NCBI RefSeq assembly: GCF_000063445.1
Contig: NC_009464.1
Coordinates: 310,001 to 374,000 of the forward strand
Length of the DNA stretch: 64,000 bases
From: Methanocella arvoryzae MRE50
GTDB taxonomy: Archaea > Halobacteriota > Methanocellia > Methanocellales > Methanocellaceae
Direction: 5' to 3'
This document shows, in pieces, positions 7,008-49,195 of this stretch. The notes beneath the pieces were generated by a model that saw nothing but the letters and a program-made list of their open reading frames with translations, made no database searches and was not told the origin of the DNA. The position numbers were made by a program, and so were the translations under genes. How positions within the stretch are numbered: position 1 is the first letter of the stretch; every line of letters starts with the position of its first letter.

Positions 7008-8069
7008 TTACAGCTTGATCCGGCCCAGGCTGAAGTACTGTATCCCACTCCGGTCAAAGGCAAAGACCATGTCCTTACGGACGCTATTGGCGAGCCGGAT
7101 AGATCTAGATAAATCCTGCATCTGATAGACGTGGTCGTTTTCCACATAGCCGACCAGATATTTAGAGTGAGGGATCTTCTCGATGGTTTCGATCTTTTCA
7201 TAGACTCGGAAATCACTGCCGAACTTGAACCCTGTCTTTGCCACGAGGCCTTTGTCCCTGAGATCGGTATACGTCTTAAGCTTGCCCACGAAAGAGGACT
7301 CGATCTGCAGCGCCTTTGCGGTGAAGTCGTCCGGGGTCATGATACGGCCTTCGTAATCCGTGACTTCTAGCTTGCCCCGCATGATCAGGTAGGCTGCCTC
7401 GACCAGCGAGAGCTGTAACCTTCGGTCGTCCATCGGATTACCGTAGAAACCATCCTGGTGCAGGCGAGTCGATACTTCGGTGTCCCAGATGACGACCCGG
7501 TCCTGCAGGAACGTGGCCGAGCCGGGCACCGGAGTTAACTGGACAGGCTCCATGCCGCCTTTTAGCACGTTGAACTTGACACCATAGTAGGTGATGTCGC
7601 TCTCCTCATCCACGATGGCGAGGACCATCTCTTTCCGGACGTTCAGGGCTGCCTGCAAATTGCTGATCAGCTGCTGCAGCGGCATCGGCTTGCGCTCTGT
7701 AACGACATGGACGAAGTACTTTGATGGCGCTACGTTGGGCTTGCCACCTCTCGGATAGACCCTGAAGTCAGTCACACTGGGCTGCACGTAGTAGCCCCGC
7801 TCCCGTAAATCTCTGTAGACGATGTACTTGAGCTCGAAGTACTCCTGCGCCTGAGATGCGGCGATGAAAAAGTCCCTGAACGAAAGCGATCTGCCCTCCT
7901 GGTCCACGCTGATGCGCTCCCGGTCCAGCAGGTAAGCCGCTTCCACCAGTGCCAGCTCCAGCGTCTCGCCTTTCAGGCGGCCGTAGTACTGGGCGTTGTA
8001 CAGCTCGGCTACCGCCTCGCCGCCAAAGATCACTTTATCGCCTTTCAGGACTCCCTTCATGCTATCCAT
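7008..8069 (-). CDS. endA: tRNA-splicing endonuclease, tandem-fused form
   Basis: Removes introns from pre-tRNAs (and archaeal pre-rRNA) at bulge-helix-bulge motifs. The 353 residues contain two EndA units, matching the fused homodimeric class known from Archaeoglobus-type archaea. The C-terminal unit carries the triad: Tyr in DFRVYEK, His in IPHSKYLVG, and Lys in VRKDMVFAF. The N-terminal unit aligns (DFRVYPRGG, VAPSKYFVH, VRKEMVLAI) but has Pro where the catalytic His should be, so it is probably the structural half. It is convergent with the DUF2156 gene 31 bp away. Confidence 0.95.
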   Translation of the reverse strand: MDSMKGVLKGDKVIFGGEAVAELYNAQYYGRLKGETLELALVEAAYLLDRERISVDQEGRSLSFRDFFIAASQAQEYFELKYIVYRDLRERGYYVQPSVTDFRVYPRGGKPNVAPSKYFVHVVTERKPMPLQQLISNLQAALNVRKEMVLAIVDEESDITYYGVKFNVLKGGMEPVQLTPVPGSATFLQDRVVIWDTEVSTRLHQDGFYGNPMDDRRLQLSLVEAAYLIMRGKLEVTDYEGRIMTPDDFTAKALQIESSFVGKLKTYTDLRDKGLVAKTGFKFGSDFRVYEKIETIEKIPHSKYLVGYVENDHVYQMQDLSRSIRLANSVRKDMVFAFDRSGIQYFSLGRIKL

Positions 8070-8140
8070 TGCGCCTTAGTTATTGGCCATAATATAAAAA
8101 GATTGAGCAGGGATTAAGATCATTTCAGGCATTGTCCGGG

Positions 8141-8284
8141 CAGTCAGGTACCGTTTACACAAAGTACACAAGGTACACGAAGTACACGAAGTTTTACGAT
8201 AAGATCATATTACGGCATGCCGCTTTTACTATACTTAGTGTACCTTGTGTACTTCGTGTACTTCGTGTAAATGGTACGGGCACC
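8141..8284. repeat. TACACGAAG-type inverted-repeat element, copy R1 (intact)
   Basis: A roughly 140-bp element. The left arm (8147-8192) carries repeated TACACGAAG/TACACAAGG words and the right arm (8239-8277) carries their complement. The central loop includes GGCATGCC. The two ends differ outside a shared GTACC core: one reads CAGTCAGGTACCG, the other (opposite strand) GTGCCCGTACC. The same two ends occur in the 45.1-45.6 kb copy, which shows that this is a defined unit rather than random low complexity. No coding potential. Confidence 0.8.
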
Positions 8285-8323
8285 CATAATAGAGATTTAT
8301 AGAATGGCAATAATAGAACCTGG

Positions 8324-9271
8324 TCACTCGCCCTTGATCTCATCGAACGCCAGGTCTTCCCACTTGCGCAGCCCTTTGACGATGTCGAACTCCACGGGCG
8401 TCAAAACTGGCACGCCGAACCGCCCGGCGTCGTCGATGGCTACCCGGGGGCAGACCGTGGATACGTAGGCGTCGACCTTAAAAGATAGCAACCGGTCTGG
8501 CGTTATCTCTCGGATGGAGATTAGTGTAGCGTCGCCGGCGGTCTCTTTGATCCGGCGGGCGAGTTCGAGCCGTTTCTGACCGGTTTTTGTGCCGATGATG
8601 ATGCCCCACTTTTTGGCGTCCATCGCTTTAGCCATGAGAGCGTACCGCTGCCTCATGATCTTTTCGACGTCGACCTTTCGGGCTTCGCCGGTAAAGGGGT
8701 CTGCTGCGATGACCGGGACTCCGGTGCTCAGCTGGGCGCCCATCGGGTGGAAGTTGCCGCTGCCTACATACAGGACTGTGTCCACGCCTGCCGGTGTGGC
8801 GCTGAAGTTGCAGCCCAGCAGCTGGCCGGGGTACGTGATCCGGGAGTCGCCTCTGGCGATCACCGGAGTCTTCCCCGCCTCGATAAGCAGCTGTTCCATC
8901 CTCTTGAGCATGTGGATGTGCTGGACAGTGGTGACGATGCCGACTTTCTGCCCGAGCAGCGGCAGAGCGTTCCTGATGGCCGTGTCAACCTCGACTTCGT
9001 GATGGTACTCGATGAAGACGATACGATCGTCGTCCATCAGCCGGGAGTGCCCGAAATGGAACAGGACGTCGACCATGTCCAGCAGGCTGTCGTCGATGTC
9101 GCAGGCGCCGTAGCACGGATCGCCGGATACGATTACGAGAGCGCCAGTCCTGGCCTCCACGTCTTTCGCAATGCCCGGGCCCTGCCTCTTCAGGCCCTCG
9201 GGAAACTGGAGCCCGATAGTCTTCGCCTTACGCTCCTCTATAATGCGGACAATACCGTCGACGTCGATCAT
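8324..9271 (-). CDS. dph2: Diphthamide biosynthesis protein Dph2
   Basis: Archaeal Dph2 is a homodimeric [4Fe-4S] radical-SAM-like enzyme that transfers the 3-amino-3-carboxypropyl group of SAM to the target histidine of elongation factor 2, the first step of diphthamide synthesis. The three cluster cysteines are visible in the expected places: DPCYGACD (about 52-59), LLGCNFSA (about 152-159) and STVCPRVAIDD (about 271-281). The 315-residue length is normal. The gene stands alone between two repeat elements. Confidence 0.95.
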   Translation of the reverse strand: MIDVDGIVRIIEERKAKTIGLQFPEGLKRQGPGIAKDVEARTGALVIVSGDPCYGACDIDDSLLDMVDVLFHFGHSRLMDDDRIVFIEYHHEVEVDTAIRNALPLLGQKVGIVTTVQHIHMLKRMEQLLIEAGKTPVIARGDSRITYPGQLLGCNFSATPAGVDTVLYVGSGNFHPMGAQLSTGVPVIAADPFTGEARKVDVEKIMRQRYALMAKAMDAKKWGIIIGTKTGQKRLELARRIKETAGDATLISIREITPDRLLSFKVDAYVSTVCPRVAIDDAGRFGVPVLTPVEFDIVKGLRKWEDLAFDEIKGE

Positions 9272-9719
9272 AAACGGTTTTAGTTATGCATCCTTTTACT
9301 ATATAGCTGCCGAGACGTGGGGAACAATATCTGAGTAGCCAGTATTTCCGGGCTCGTTGGTTTGAAGTTGCTATCTGCCCAGTGCTCTGCCGTTGCATGG
9401 ACTCTCGTGGGTAGCACAAAGACACAAAAATCATTTTTTAGATGGACACGAAATGCCCGAAAGCTCTAAGTTCACGGCTAAACCGCGAATTGCACTAAGA
9501 CACCGGTTAAAGCTCGAAGGCCACTAATACACGGCTTTAAAACACGAACAAGTTCCGCTAAAAGACGAAGACACCAAGTTAAAACAAACAACCATTTCGC
9601 CTTACCCCTGCCATGACGACTGCTACCTTACGGCTGTGCACCATAGTATTATAATAAAAAATAGGTTATATCTGCTATTGTTATAAGGCCGCCAGTCCCG
9701 CCAAGAGGCCAAGCAGTCT

Positions 9720-9978
9720 CATTATGAATAATGGGATATTCAGGTAAAGGCTATGAAAAATTGAAAGTTGGCCCTGTATAGGTCGAAAATACCGCCAAGA
9801 GCGCCAAGAAGCCAAGCTCGCCAAGAGCTATTTTTTCATGGAACGCCAAGGACTTTGTGATCAGTATCAGAAGATATCGCTAAAAATCTTGGCGTACTTG
9901 GCTCCTTGGCGTGCCTGGCGGTATTTTCGACTCACACAGGGCAAACATTAAATTTTTCATACTCTTACTTGAAAATAC
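9720..9978. repeat. CCGCCAAG-type hairpin element, copy a
   Basis: The left arm contains CTATGAAAAATT...GGCCCTGT...GTCGAAAATACCGCCAAG; the right arm contains CTTGGCGTGCCTGGCGGTAT followed by TTTCGACTCACACAGGGC and the complement of TATGAAAAATTT. The words GCCAAG and its complement recur about every 8-12 bases. A second copy, interrupted, is present at 44512-45118. The internal segment with ATCAGAAGATATCGC is shared by both copies. Confidence 0.8.
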
Positions 9979-9992
9979 CCTTTCATCCACGA

Positions 9993-10090
9993 GTCTTTCC
10001 TGAAACATTTTTGACAGTTCCTTTGCTATGATATTCGCCTGTTGAATACCTGCGAATGCAGGCATTCTCAAGGCGATTCTCGACAGCCGA
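9993..10090 (-). repeat. Fragment related to the TA-duplicating element
   Basis: GAGTCTTTCCTGAAAC at the left end resembles the terminal repeat of the element at 45249-45580, and the following ~95 bases match the right arm of that element in inverted orientation, including the CCTGCGAATGCAGGC palindrome (10049 region here, 45511 region there). Only this one arm is recognisable, so it is likely a decayed or solo copy. Confidence 0.6.
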
Positions 10091-10099
10091 TTTTCCCCC

Positions 10100-10205
10100 T
10101 CGTTCCTCTGGCCCCTCACCTTCCCCCTCTCAGACCTCCTGACCTCCCTGACCTCCCAGTTTGAAAAGTCTCCCTGATCTCCCGGCACTCCCCAATCTCC
10201 CATTT
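10100..10205 (-). repeat. GACCTCC-type element, single arm
   Basis: A pyrimidine-rich stretch repeating CTGACCTCC/CCTCCCTGA words, with the segment TGACCTCCCAGTTTGAAAA matching the TGACCTCCCAGCTTGAACG of the 44680-44970 element. Only one arm is present. Confidence 0.55.
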
Positions 10206-10662
10206 TCCATGGTACGGATACGCAAGCCGGATGACAACGACATAATCAGGATACCGTTAAACGATGGCAACTGCTTGTTCAACCGTGTTTTAGTTTGGTG
10301 TCTTCGAGCATTCGCGGAACTTGTTCGTATTTTAAGACCGTGCCCTTTGTGCATTATGTCGATTAATTGTGATTTCGTGCAGTTCGCGTTTTAGCCGTGT
10401 ACCTTAGAGCCTTAGAGTTTTAGTGTCCCTCTAAAAAAGTAGTTTAGTGTTTTCGTGCTACGCACGCAAGCCCAAACAACAGTGTAACACTGGACCACCC
10501 AATGCACTATAAGAAATGCGATATGGGCTGCATAGAACGACCTTAGATCTGGTAGAATAGTAAATCGGACGACACGGGCGGGTTGTCGCTCAACCCATTT
10601 TATGATTGGCGCTAAAAATTCGGCAATATAGCAATTTTTCAGAATTTTTATATGGCATTTGT

Positions 10663-10670
10663 TTTATAAA
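10663..10670 (+). promoter_or_regulatory. TATA box of first tRNA-Thr gene
   Basis: TTTATAAA lies about 31-38 bases upstream of the tRNA at 10701, the usual position of an archaeal box A for a tRNA gene. It indicates that the first tRNA-Thr copy still has a promoter despite its odd anticodon loop. Confidence 0.55.
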
Positions 10671-10700
10671 AGTATGCTAAACAAGGTATTGCAAGTAGAA

Positions 10701-10777
10701 GCCCCTGTGGCTCAGTTGGCTAGAGCGGCTGACATGTAATCAGCAGTGCGGTAGTTCAAATCTATCCGGGGGCTCCA
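10701..10777 (+). tRNA. tRNA-Thr(UGU), atypical A33, CCA encoded
   Basis: A full cloverleaf can be drawn: acceptor GCCCCTG/CGGGGGC, D-stem GCTC/GAGC, anticodon stem GCTGA/TCAGC with loop CATGTAA, T-stem GGTAG/CTATC with TTCAAAT loop, discriminator T. The anticodon at positions 34-36 is TGT, decoding ACA. Position 33 is A, where U is nearly universal. Unlike the next gene, it encodes its own 3' CCA (10775-10777). It may be a decayed or functionally altered copy, but its stems are intact and a TATA box precedes it. Confidence 0.85.
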
Positions 10778-10916
10778 TATTATCCAACAAATACAGCAAT
10801 TTGGCAGCCAGCATGTGACGGCAGGCGTGGGGTATGTCTGCCGCCATGTGATTGTAAGATCATGGTCACGCGCAAAATATTAATACAGCAATCGACATTT
10901 TATTCTCGCTTACAAT

Positions 10917-19557: not shown

Positions 19558-19587
19558 ATCTTTCAGGGCTCTGCGATTCAACTAGAC

Positions 19588-19994
19588 GAACGCTGTGCTG
19601 TGCCTTATTTGATTGTATAGGATACCCGAGACTACATATCGAACGCTGCGCTGTGCTAATCCTCACAGATGCCACAGATTCTGATTGATTCCACAGATTT
19701 CTCTGCTGAATCCACAGATTACTACACAATATCACAGATGGAATACGCTAATACAATTCGATCACAGATAGCAATCATAAGATAGTCAATCAGAACACTA
19801 TTTGTTTATCTCTAGAATCCATCAGAATCATAAAATTCTGCGTCGTCTGTGCTATCCCATCAGGAATCTGTGGAATCTGGCAGAATCATCAGATTCTGCA
19901 CCATCCGTGGAATCTGTGAGGCTTTGCACAGCGCAGCGTTCGTATTGCTGCCTCACCAGTCCGAGCGATCAGAAACACACAGCGCAGCGTTCGG
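19588..19994. repeat. CACAGATT-type inverted-repeat element with GC-rich ends, nested double copy
   Basis: The inner element, 19641-19941, is bounded by GAACGCTGCGCTGTGC and its complement GCACAGCGCAGCGTTC. Inside are repeated CACAGATT/CACAGATG words on the left and AATCTGTG words on the right. A second pair of the same ends (GAACGCTGTGCTGTGC at 19588 and CACAGCGCAGCGTTC ending about 19993) encloses the first, so one copy seems to sit within another. The right edge touches the stop codon of the MFS gene at 20001. Confidence 0.75.
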
Positions 19995-23691: not shown

Positions 23692-23940
23692 TGCAAAATG
23701 TTCACCACAGAAGCTCACAGAGAACTGTTTTACCGCAGAGGCACAGAGACGCACAGAGATACACAGAGATACATAGAGATTTTTTGATATAATGATGGGC
23801 ATACAATAGATATTGAAGTAAGTCTCTGTGTACCTCTGTGCCTCTGTGGTGAACCGTTTCTCTGTGCGTCTCTGTGAGCCTCTGCGTCTCTGTGGTAAAT
23901 AGTAGCTCTGTGAGTCTCTGTGCACACTGTGGTGAGCCGT
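23692..23940. repeat. CACAGAGA-type inverted-repeat element
   Basis: The left arm (23692-23790) repeats ACACAGAGATAC/GGCACAGAGACGC words after TTCACCACAGAAGC; the right arm (23820-23940) carries the complement (CCTCTGTGCCTCTGTGGTGA and further CTCTGTG words). The short AT-rich loop contains TTTTTTGATATAATGATGGG. Frames through this region give only low-complexity peptides. A CCTGTGCCTCTGTGGTAAG fragment of the same type lies at 31388-31406. Confidence 0.75.
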
Positions 23941-24111
23941 TTTCCATCATGCCCTGTGCACCCTGTTTTGATCCCTTAGTACAAGGCAATTTGATTTCAT
24001 TAGTCGTCATCATTTTTCAAATCCGAACTTTTTGCCGGCGATGGCGGCGGTGTAGAATATCTCTGCGCAAGCCTAGAGCGTTGTGCTATTTAATCAAGGT
24101 GGGTCCACCGC

Positions 24112-44511: not shown

Positions 44512-45118
44512 AAAAATGAGATATTCAGGTAGAGGCTATGAAAAATTAATAGTTGGCCCTGTGTGAGTCGAAAATACCGCCAGGCCCGCCAAGGTGCCAA
44601 GCTCGCCAAGAGATATTTTTCATGGAACTCCAAGAGGCCAAGTACTCATCTCATGAAAACTGGTTTTTCTAGTTAAGCCGATGAAAAACTCCTGGAGGTC
44701 GGGAGTTCCCGGGAGGCGGGGGAGGATTTTCAAGCTGGGAGGTTCGAGAGGGTGGAGAGGTCGAAGAGGAGGTCCGGGAGTGTGGAAAGGTCAGAGAGGA
44801 TTTTTTAAGTTAAATCTCTCAGACCTCTGGGTACTCACATAACCTCCTCTCTGAACTCAATGACCTCCATGACCTCCCAGCTTGAACGTTTCCTCTCTAA
44901 ACTCCGTGAACCTCTCCGACCTCCCCCTCCCCCGACCTCTCAATACCTCCCTGACCCAGATTTTTCATGAAACGCCAAGGATTTGGTGATCAGGATCAGA
45001 AGATATCGCCAAAAATCTTGGCGTGCTTGGCTCCTTGGCGTGCCTGGCGGTATTTTCGACCCATATGGGGACAACTTTCAATTTTTCATACCCCTACTTG
45101 AAAATACCCTTTTCATCC
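44512..45118. repeat. CCGCCAAG-type hairpin element, copy b, interrupted
   Basis: Same ends and arms as the 9720-9978 element: left arm ATGAAAAATGAGATATTCAG...GTCGAAAATACCGCCAGGCC, right arm CTTGGCGTGCCTGGCGGTAT and complement of the left. The internal ATCAGAAGATATCGCC is also shared. The continuous left-to-right internal sequence of copy a is here broken near TTTTTCATGGAAC by a ~290-bp GACCTCC-type element (44680-44970) bounded by a second TTTTTCATGAAAC. Confidence 0.78.
44680..44970. repeat. GACCTCC-type inverted-repeat element, both arms
   Basis: The left arm is purine-rich (GGAGGTCGGGAGTTCCC..., repeated GAGAGGTC words), the right arm pyrimidine-rich (repeated GACCTCC/ACCTCCCTGAC words); they are complementary. 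Outer edges read ATGAAAAACTCCTGGAGG and the complement of ACCCAGATTTTTCAT. The element lies inside CCGCCAAG copy b. A half-copy of its left arm stands at 49066-49195 and a half-copy of its right arm at 10100-10205. Confidence 0.72.
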
Positions 45119-45248
45119 ATGAGTCCTTACTGAAACGTTTCGTACGAGTGCCCGTACCGTTTACACGAAGTACCCGAAGTACACGAAGTACTCAAAGTAC
45201 GGTAAAAATGGCATGCTGTAAGATGATCTTATCGTAAAACTTCGTGTA

Positions 45249-45580
45249 TAGTCATTTCTGAAACTTTTTGGACGTCTGTCCGATCAGATCGTGGGGCGTA
45301 TAGCCCTTGCTTATTCACGTGTGAACGATGACGAACGCTGCGCTGTGCTTGGACACAGATTGGACAGATGATACAGATTGGACAGATACGATAAGGAAAA
45401 ATTGGTTAGACGATATCCTATTTCAGGTAGTATCTGTATAATCTGTCAAATCTGTACAATCTGTGTCCCGGCACAGCGCAGCGATCGTTCACGCATCGCC
45501 TCGAGAACGCCTGCGAATGCAGGCGTTCAAAAGGCGAACATCCAGGCACAGGAATGTCCAAAAAGTTTCAAGAAAAACTA
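45249..45580. mobile_element. 332-bp non-autonomous (MITE-like) element with TA target duplication
   Basis: Terminal inverted repeats of about 25 bp: left TAGTCATTTCTGAAAC plus TTTTTGGAC, right complement TAGTTTTTCTTGAAAC plus TTTTTGGAC, 21 of 25 matching. It is flanked by TA on both sides (45247-45248, 45581-45582), while the uninterrupted homologue R1 has a single TA at that point. TA duplication is the hallmark of IS630/Tc1/mariner transposition. No transposase is encoded. A CACAGATT-type hairpin lies inside (about 45333-45490). A related arm lies at 9993-10090. Confidence 0.82.
45333..45490. repeat. CACAGATT-type hairpin with GAACGCTGCGCTGTGC ends
   Basis: Left end GACGAACGCTGCGCTGTGCT, then repeated ACAGATTGGACAGAT words; right arm repeats AATCTGT words and ends GGCACAGCGCAGCGATCG. 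The same ends bound the 19641-19941 element. It sits within the TA-duplicating element. Confidence 0.72.
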
Positions 45581-45683
45581 TACTTCGTGTACCTTGTGTA
45601 CTTCGAGTAAACGGTACCTGACTGTCATAAAAGATTTAAGAATAACTCTACTCAAACATGATAAAAAAGGATCAGACAGCAGT

Positions 45684-49065: not shown

Positions 49066-49195
49066 ACCTCGAAAAGCCCGGAGGTTGAGAAGTTCCCGTG
49101 AGGCCGGGGAGGATTTTCAAGCTGGGAGGTCCGGGAGGGTAGAGAGGTCTGGGAGGAGGTCCGGGAGTGTGGAAAGGTTGGAGAGGTTTTTCTAA
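49066..49195. repeat. GACCTCC-type element, solo purine-rich arm
   Basis: From CCCGGAGGTTGAGAAGTTCC to GAGAGGTTTTTCTAAAGTTA, about 125 bases match the left arm of the 44680-44970 element nearly throughout (shared GGAGGATTTTCAAGCTGGGA and GGTCCGGGAGTGTGGAAAGG). The complementary arm is absent. Confidence 0.7.

Follow-up and report, generated by a model that had tools for sequence, protein, structure and literature searches.

Arrays of short words flank GxxExxY genes and probable miniature mobile elements in Methanocella arvoryzae

We have found that the arrays of short words in the genome of Methanocella arvoryzae MRE50 are tied to GxxExxY (PF13366/TIGR04256) genes, around which they form flanking arms. 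This association appears to be new. Gene and arms constitute one unit that occurs in near-identical copies at unrelated sites, varies in presence and carries words that co-vary with the protein. The word-repeat loci are probably small mobile elements with word-array ends, in which full units carry GxxExxY and the copies in the stretch analysed here are gene-less miniatures. Together, these loci look like a family of word-ended elements that extends over archaea and bacteria.

Word elements in the window and the genome

The stretch of DNA that was analysed, hereafter the window, comprises 64,000 nucleotides (NC_009464.1:310,001-374,000) of the 3,179,916-base M. arvoryzae genome (G000). A first census of inverted repeats scoring at least 50 covered 444 kb, made up of the window and 19 stretches of the same genome, and returned 44 inverted pairs; dinucleotide shuffles returned none. 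A second set of stretches brought the census to 844 kb (27% of the genome) and 81 merged inverted loci, 58 of which are built from tandem 7-base words. These belong to the CACAGAT (19), CACAGAG (14), CGCCAAG (12), GGAGGTC (6), TACACGAAG (5) and CGCAAAG (2) families. The other 23 loci are unlabelled, a few of them being small CGCAAAG hairpins. Word elements account for about 2.1% of the sampled DNA (17.8 of 844 kb), and one CACAGAG word block (G000:C1:108829-109028) is present in six perfect tandem copies at a spacing of 35 nt.

The original prediction had described several unrelated word families with one architecture and one size. The common architecture was borne out, but the elements range from 130 nt to 1115 nt, and most of the words proved to be variants of a single degenerate word, CRCNRAK. 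This consensus fits CACAGAG, CACAGAT, CGCCAAG, CACGAAG and CACTAAG, and does not fit GGAGGTC. The placement of the elements in non-coding, intergenic DNA was upheld, as 53 of the 58 have less than 20% of their bases in open reading frames (ORFs) of at least 150 aa, and such ORFs hold 12.6% of element bases versus 78.6% of all sampled bases.

Within the window, inverted word arms were expected at six places and are present in five regions (8.1, 9.4-10.5, 19.6-19.9, 23.7-23.9 and 44.5-45.6 kb), with none in shuffled sequence; at 49.1 kb there are only direct GGAGGTC repeats (49125-49184), which lack an opposing arm, and no word-bearing inverted repeat. The element at 8148-8277 is gene-less and belongs to the TACACGAAG family, whose word CACGAAG fits CRCNRAK; its arms (8156-8184 and 8232-8260) are 93% complementary. 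The 9.4-10.5 kb element has outer arms of ACACGAA/CACTAAG words at 9379-9586 (left) and 10286-10493 (right), complementary at 75-82%, and the right arm weakly resembles, at the DNA level, the arms of a GxxExxY unit of genome G019 (L204; 62% over 135 nt, E 2e-4). Enclosed by these arms is a CGCCAAG element (9730-9982) that is self-inverted across 253 nt and has the words that also flank the GxxExxY gene of L003 described below. A one-sided GACCTCC array (10080-10205), found by reading, was seen on a single strand, and no opposing arm was found within 7800-10800.

The CACAGAT element at 19587-19993 is of the same family as the GxxExxY-bearing locus L001 and has 53-nt end units starting with CGAACGCTGCGCTGTGC, with left ends at 19587 and 19640 and right ends at 19942 and 19993. 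Elements of this family (this copy, L114, L127, L133, L232 and L237) carry one to three such units in tandem on each side, and the units also occur solitary. In several CACAGAT copies (19808-19914; L124, L132, L235 and L238; alignment A2), a micro-palindrome like CAGAATCATCAGATTCTG lies between words in one arm only. A CACAGAG element occupies 23706-23942.

Nesting was also part of the original prediction and was upheld, although the 45.15-45.62 kb locus is not a simple case of it. A CGCCAAG element (44513-45113; arms 44534-44611 and 45016-45093, 86%) is broken up by a GGAGGTC palindrome (44729-44886), the centre of which lies about 6 nt from that of the outer element. The TACACGAAG element at 45154-45617 has a right arm that carries a large insert; by eye, this insert seems to be accompanied by a TA duplication, and the inner block lies in that arm and not in the loop. 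This element contains a CACAGAT element (45331-45488) with arms that are 85% complementary. Inspected by eye, the insert (45250-45590) has the ends TAGT..TTTCTTGAAACTTTTTGGAC and contains other palindromes.

CRISPR arrays consist of direct repeats of 21-40 nt and unique spacers of equal length. The elements described here have 7-nt words at 8-10 nt from start to start in opposed arrays, and were rejected as CRISPR arrays. A known RNA family was rejected too, since the sole Rfam matches of the window at the gathering score are three tRNAs.

GxxExxY genes between word arms

GxxExxY genes commonly occur amid words of this kind, which prompted a test. The M. arvoryzae genome has four PF13366 matches above the curated cut-off, one of which is a fragment; the three full genes score 121-140 bits with TIGR04256 (cut-off 35). 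Two of the four are enclosed by arms of two word families of the window. At L001, the gene lies between 126-nt CACAGAT arms (1003-1128 and 1883-2008) with the CGAACGCTGCGCTGTGC end that is also seen at 19.6 and 45.3 kb of the window, and at L003 it lies between 42-nt CGCCAAG arms (1363-1404 and 1947-1988) of the family found at 9.7 and 44.5 kb. The fragment, L004, is located among CGCCAAG and GGAGGTC elements, and no arms were found at L002.

The survey of other genomes used 33 loci of the phylum, including those of M. arvoryzae, and 80 named loci, mostly from Bacteroidota, for a total of 113, of which 111 were usable. The upstream flank of each gene was aligned with the reverse-complemented downstream flank. 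Mismatched pairs (n = 600), none of which scored above 39, gave a 99th percentile of 34, which served as the threshold. Significant inverted arms were found at 50 of 111 GxxExxY genes (16/33 in the phylum set and 34/78 in the named set), and the remaining 61 missed the threshold. Pseudo-gene positions in the same loci never exceeded it (0/130), and neither did the ParE control genes (0/29 usable, from 33 of the same genomes). The arms usually start no farther than about 100 nt from the gene. All 19 further loci, which are added copies in already sampled genomes (G009, G019, G029, G265 and G211) and in part repeat loci of the first set, score 74-396.

At least two CRCNRAK words occur in an arm of 37 of the 50 significant pairs, and 13 have no such words. 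The distance from word to word is mostly 8, 9 or 10 nt (36, 66 and 30 cases), and each end holds some 2-10 word copies, often with an outer TTWACC. The words point inward, with 329 forward and 136 reverse upstream and 387 and 193 downstream in mirror reading; exceptions include GGAAATCT-type, CATATAAG-type and some reversed arms. Families of the window recur at the 132 GxxExxY loci (CGCCAAG at 2, CACAGAT at 4, CACAGAG at 5 and ACACGAA/CACTAAG at 3), and the TACACGAAG and GGAGGTC families were found at none of the 132.

Arrays and gene also coincide at the level of whole genomes. Arrays of three CRCNRAG words were counted in 294 genomes of the phylum, those with at least six arrays being termed array-rich. 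PF13366 is present in 33 of 46 array-rich genomes versus 18 of 248 others (Fisher 2e-20), or in 28 of 46 versus 7 of 248 at E ≤1e-8 (Fisher 1e-20); genome counts were tallied by eye, and both tests leave kinship among the genomes uncorrected. The other 13 array-rich genomes have no PF13366 match. Forward and reverse arrays are nearly equal in number (160/141 in M. arvoryzae and 77/77 in G009). CGCGAAG arrays are abundant in G105, G130 and G270, which have no PF13366 match, and the relatives G079, G157 and G256 have both. G183, G203 and G272 contain many scattered short PF13366 fragments, mostly of profile positions 2-36, that are possibly decayed copies.

The GxxExxY protein is predicted to be a Cas4-like PD-(D/E)XK nuclease. 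An AF2 model built from a 26-sequence alignment has a pLDDT of 94.8 and a pTM of 0.88. Its best match in the PDB is SSO0001 (Foldseek E 1.9e-3; VIA Z 9.6, rmsd 3.6, 99 aligned), which we take to be a Cas4, and the Hjc resolvase also matches (Z 6.9, rmsd 3.1, 85 aligned); the VIA comparison gave many middling matches and only the first passed Z 8. A profile search at E up to 1 found no relative of solved structure by sequence. The catalytic pattern comprises E37, E87 and K89 in 112 of 112 sequences and D77 in 111 of 112, a conservation that is inflated by the 80 named loci having been found through their GPGLLE and ExK motifs. A defence-system identity was rejected, as PADLOC gave only weak Cas4-like matches (best E 8e-5) and one to PDC-M36A (E 0.006). 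Phage spread was likewise rejected, with the L001 protein matching no phage record and five plasmid records. GxxExxY is named in PMC8934634 and PMC12085832.

Copies, second cargo and arm evolution

Gene and arms are shared by copies whose surroundings differ. L198 and L199 (G009) are 98.8% identical over 641 columns that span the gene as well as its arms, and their flanks are unrelated; L196 and L197 share a unit that is 96.3% identical over 752 columns, and L202, L203 and L204 (G019) are 88-93% identical across about 1040 columns, with unaligned flanks in both groups. Presence also varies, as the original prediction had implied. The 8.1 kb element is missing between the same genes in G019, which has a 104-nt gap there, and in G029, which has another gene-like stretch in the gap. 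The 9.4-10.5 kb block is missing between the same genes in both. The 19.6 kb element is missing from G029 as well, but so is a neighbouring gene. At 23.7 kb, G029 has a CGCAGAG-word element between the same two genes, so that this may be an old site or a hot spot. Inverted ends, a feature of miniature inverted-repeat transposons (MITEs) and insertion sequences, are present in the window elements. Target duplications sought by eye were not consistent, one insert at 45.3 kb having TA on both sides. Some units occupy the centre of another palindrome or lie close to it (the flanks of L203 and 44.8 kb in the window), with nested offsets of 24 to 430 nt; we do not claim centre targeting because the insert at 45.15-45.62 kb sits in an arm.

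The words follow the protein. On a tree of 112 GxxExxY proteins, 68 of which have a word label, the full word requires 33 changes versus a mean of 49.2 and a minimum of 43 in 200 label shuffles, none of which was as low. Word base 7 (G/T) requires 4 changes (shuffled mean 14.8, minimum 12). Within Bacteroidota (43 rows), the full word requires 20 changes (mean 29.0, minimum 24), and base 2 alone is borderline (1/200 shuffles). The tree is weakly resolved, with 23 of 108 inner branches starred, so it is safest to conclude that the gene and its arms have descended together as a unit. Recognition of the word by the protein may underlie the co-variation.

A second gene class has the same layout. 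Genes of the S23 family (PF05635) have inverted short-word arrays at 30 of 56 usable loci (L134-L193), namely 20 of 28 in 33 genomes of other phyla and 10 of 28 in the phylum, the latter half being less clean as a few mismatched pairs there score high (99th percentile 64). Their words are different (e.g. AGTTGAC, GTAGGC and TAGTCGA), and at least two CRCNRAK words occur in none of the 30 S23 arm pairs versus the 37 of 50 GxxExxY pairs (Fisher 4e-12). S23 genes with this layout and other words link the word elements to 23S rRNA intervening sequences. According to PMC4990558, that of Coxiella is closed by a terminal stem of 28 bp and its loop holds an S23 ORF, upstream of which lie tandem GACAGAT heptamers; the authors there term the origin of such sequences unclear.

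GxxExxY is therefore not the sole cargo of this architecture, and might be a passenger. Both genes would then have been picked up in the loops of ordinary miniature transposons moved by another transposase, which would also accommodate the array-rich genomes that have no PF13366. We consider this rather unlikely. Two unrelated protein families do share one layout, but the word class is specific to the cargo, the word follows the GxxExxY tree and the catalytic residues of GxxExxY are kept. The only transposase family covered, PF01797 (RAYT), has no match in M. arvoryzae, with controls matching in 5 of 14, and was rejected as the mover; S23 was rejected on the same grounds, there being no PF05635 match in this genome.

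The arms may alternatively be RNA or DNA hairpins of inserts that, like intervening sequences, fold out of transcripts and are tolerated, with the gene as a secondary tenant. Most loci do have inverted arms, and the stem, S23 ORF and heptamers of Coxiella (PMC4990558) speak for it as well. The arms themselves make this reading improbable, as they are often only 70-80% complementary although their words are kept. In alignment A2, inspected by eye, word variants have no partners that would restore pairing and small palindromes occur in one arm only. Between the arms of GxxExxY loci, words are 91.5% and the rest 77.0% identical, and between those of gene-less elements of M. arvoryzae 96.5% and 74.0%, both in local alignments that somewhat favour matched words. 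Orientation-corrected arms of the CACAGAT family show a modest contrast, with words 93% and spacers 83% identical. Arms within an element are 74-98% identical, versus 82-99% between sister copies (74-78% and 93-99%, respectively, in G009), and general homogenisation of arms is not supported. Words that are kept above the rest, together with low likeness within elements, accord better with arrayed binding sites than with selection for a perfect hairpin. In L206 (G265), both arms were seen by eye to share an additional stretch of some 55-57 nt at mirror positions, which neither arm of L207 or L208 has; arm-to-arm copying and a twice-repeated insertion both fit.

Very improbable is vertical inheritance of immobile repeats with a regulatory or structural role, the words of each genome drifting together; the other-word element of G029 between the same genes at 23.7 kb would suit it, but the 8.1 and 9.4-10.5 kb elements are missing from two relatives and near-identical units lie at unrelated sites.

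Candidate mechanism and known systems

Small mobile elements with word-array ends thus remain the preferred reading. A complete unit holds one GxxExxY gene, encoding the predicted nuclease, between inward-pointing word arrays. The nuclease may recognize its own words, which would form a putative array of binding sites at each end, and cut there, after which cell repair would copy or move the segment. Gene-less copies would be moved in trans. Tentatively, and with less confidence than mobility itself, we propose a new class of mobile element that would be moved by a stand-alone, Cas4-like nuclease reading arrays of its own, lineage-specific word, with S23 genes and 23S rRNA intervening sequences as a sister class.

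MITEs are short, gene-less elements with inverted ends, many copies and presence/absence variation. The word elements share all of these properties but end in short-word arrays, and no consistent target duplication was seen. Cas4 and RecB-like PD-(D/E)XK nucleases resemble GxxExxY in predicted fold and catalytic pattern, whereas GxxExxY is a stand-alone protein of 120-150 aa encoded between word arms and, as the PADLOC search indicates, matches Cas4 weakly in sequence. REP/REPIN elements and their RAYT (Y1, HUH) genes, as described in PMC3733652 and PMC3116915, likewise combine many gene-less palindromic intergenic repeats with a less frequent gene that lies between inverted copies of them; here, that gene is predicted to encode a PD-(D/E)XK nuclease, PF01797 is lacking, and word-array ends take the place of 20-40 bp REP palindromes. 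The 23S rRNA intervening sequence, as described in PMC4990558, has a small gene between complementary ends with adjoining tandem heptamers. M. arvoryzae differs in lacking PF05635 and in its word class, and its elements in the window have protein genes and tRNAs as neighbours, with no rRNA found there by Rfam. In the same genus, a transposed satellite family of Methanocella conradii is reported in PMC6749651.

In many archaea and bacteria, word arrays fill the DNA between genes. Their link to one family gives TIGR04256, a widespread and little-studied gene, a testable role, with the arrays as its putative recognition sites, and suggests a framework shared with 23S rRNA intervening sequences. 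Co-variation of word and protein across archaea and bacteria would amount to a natural specificity code for a small nuclease.
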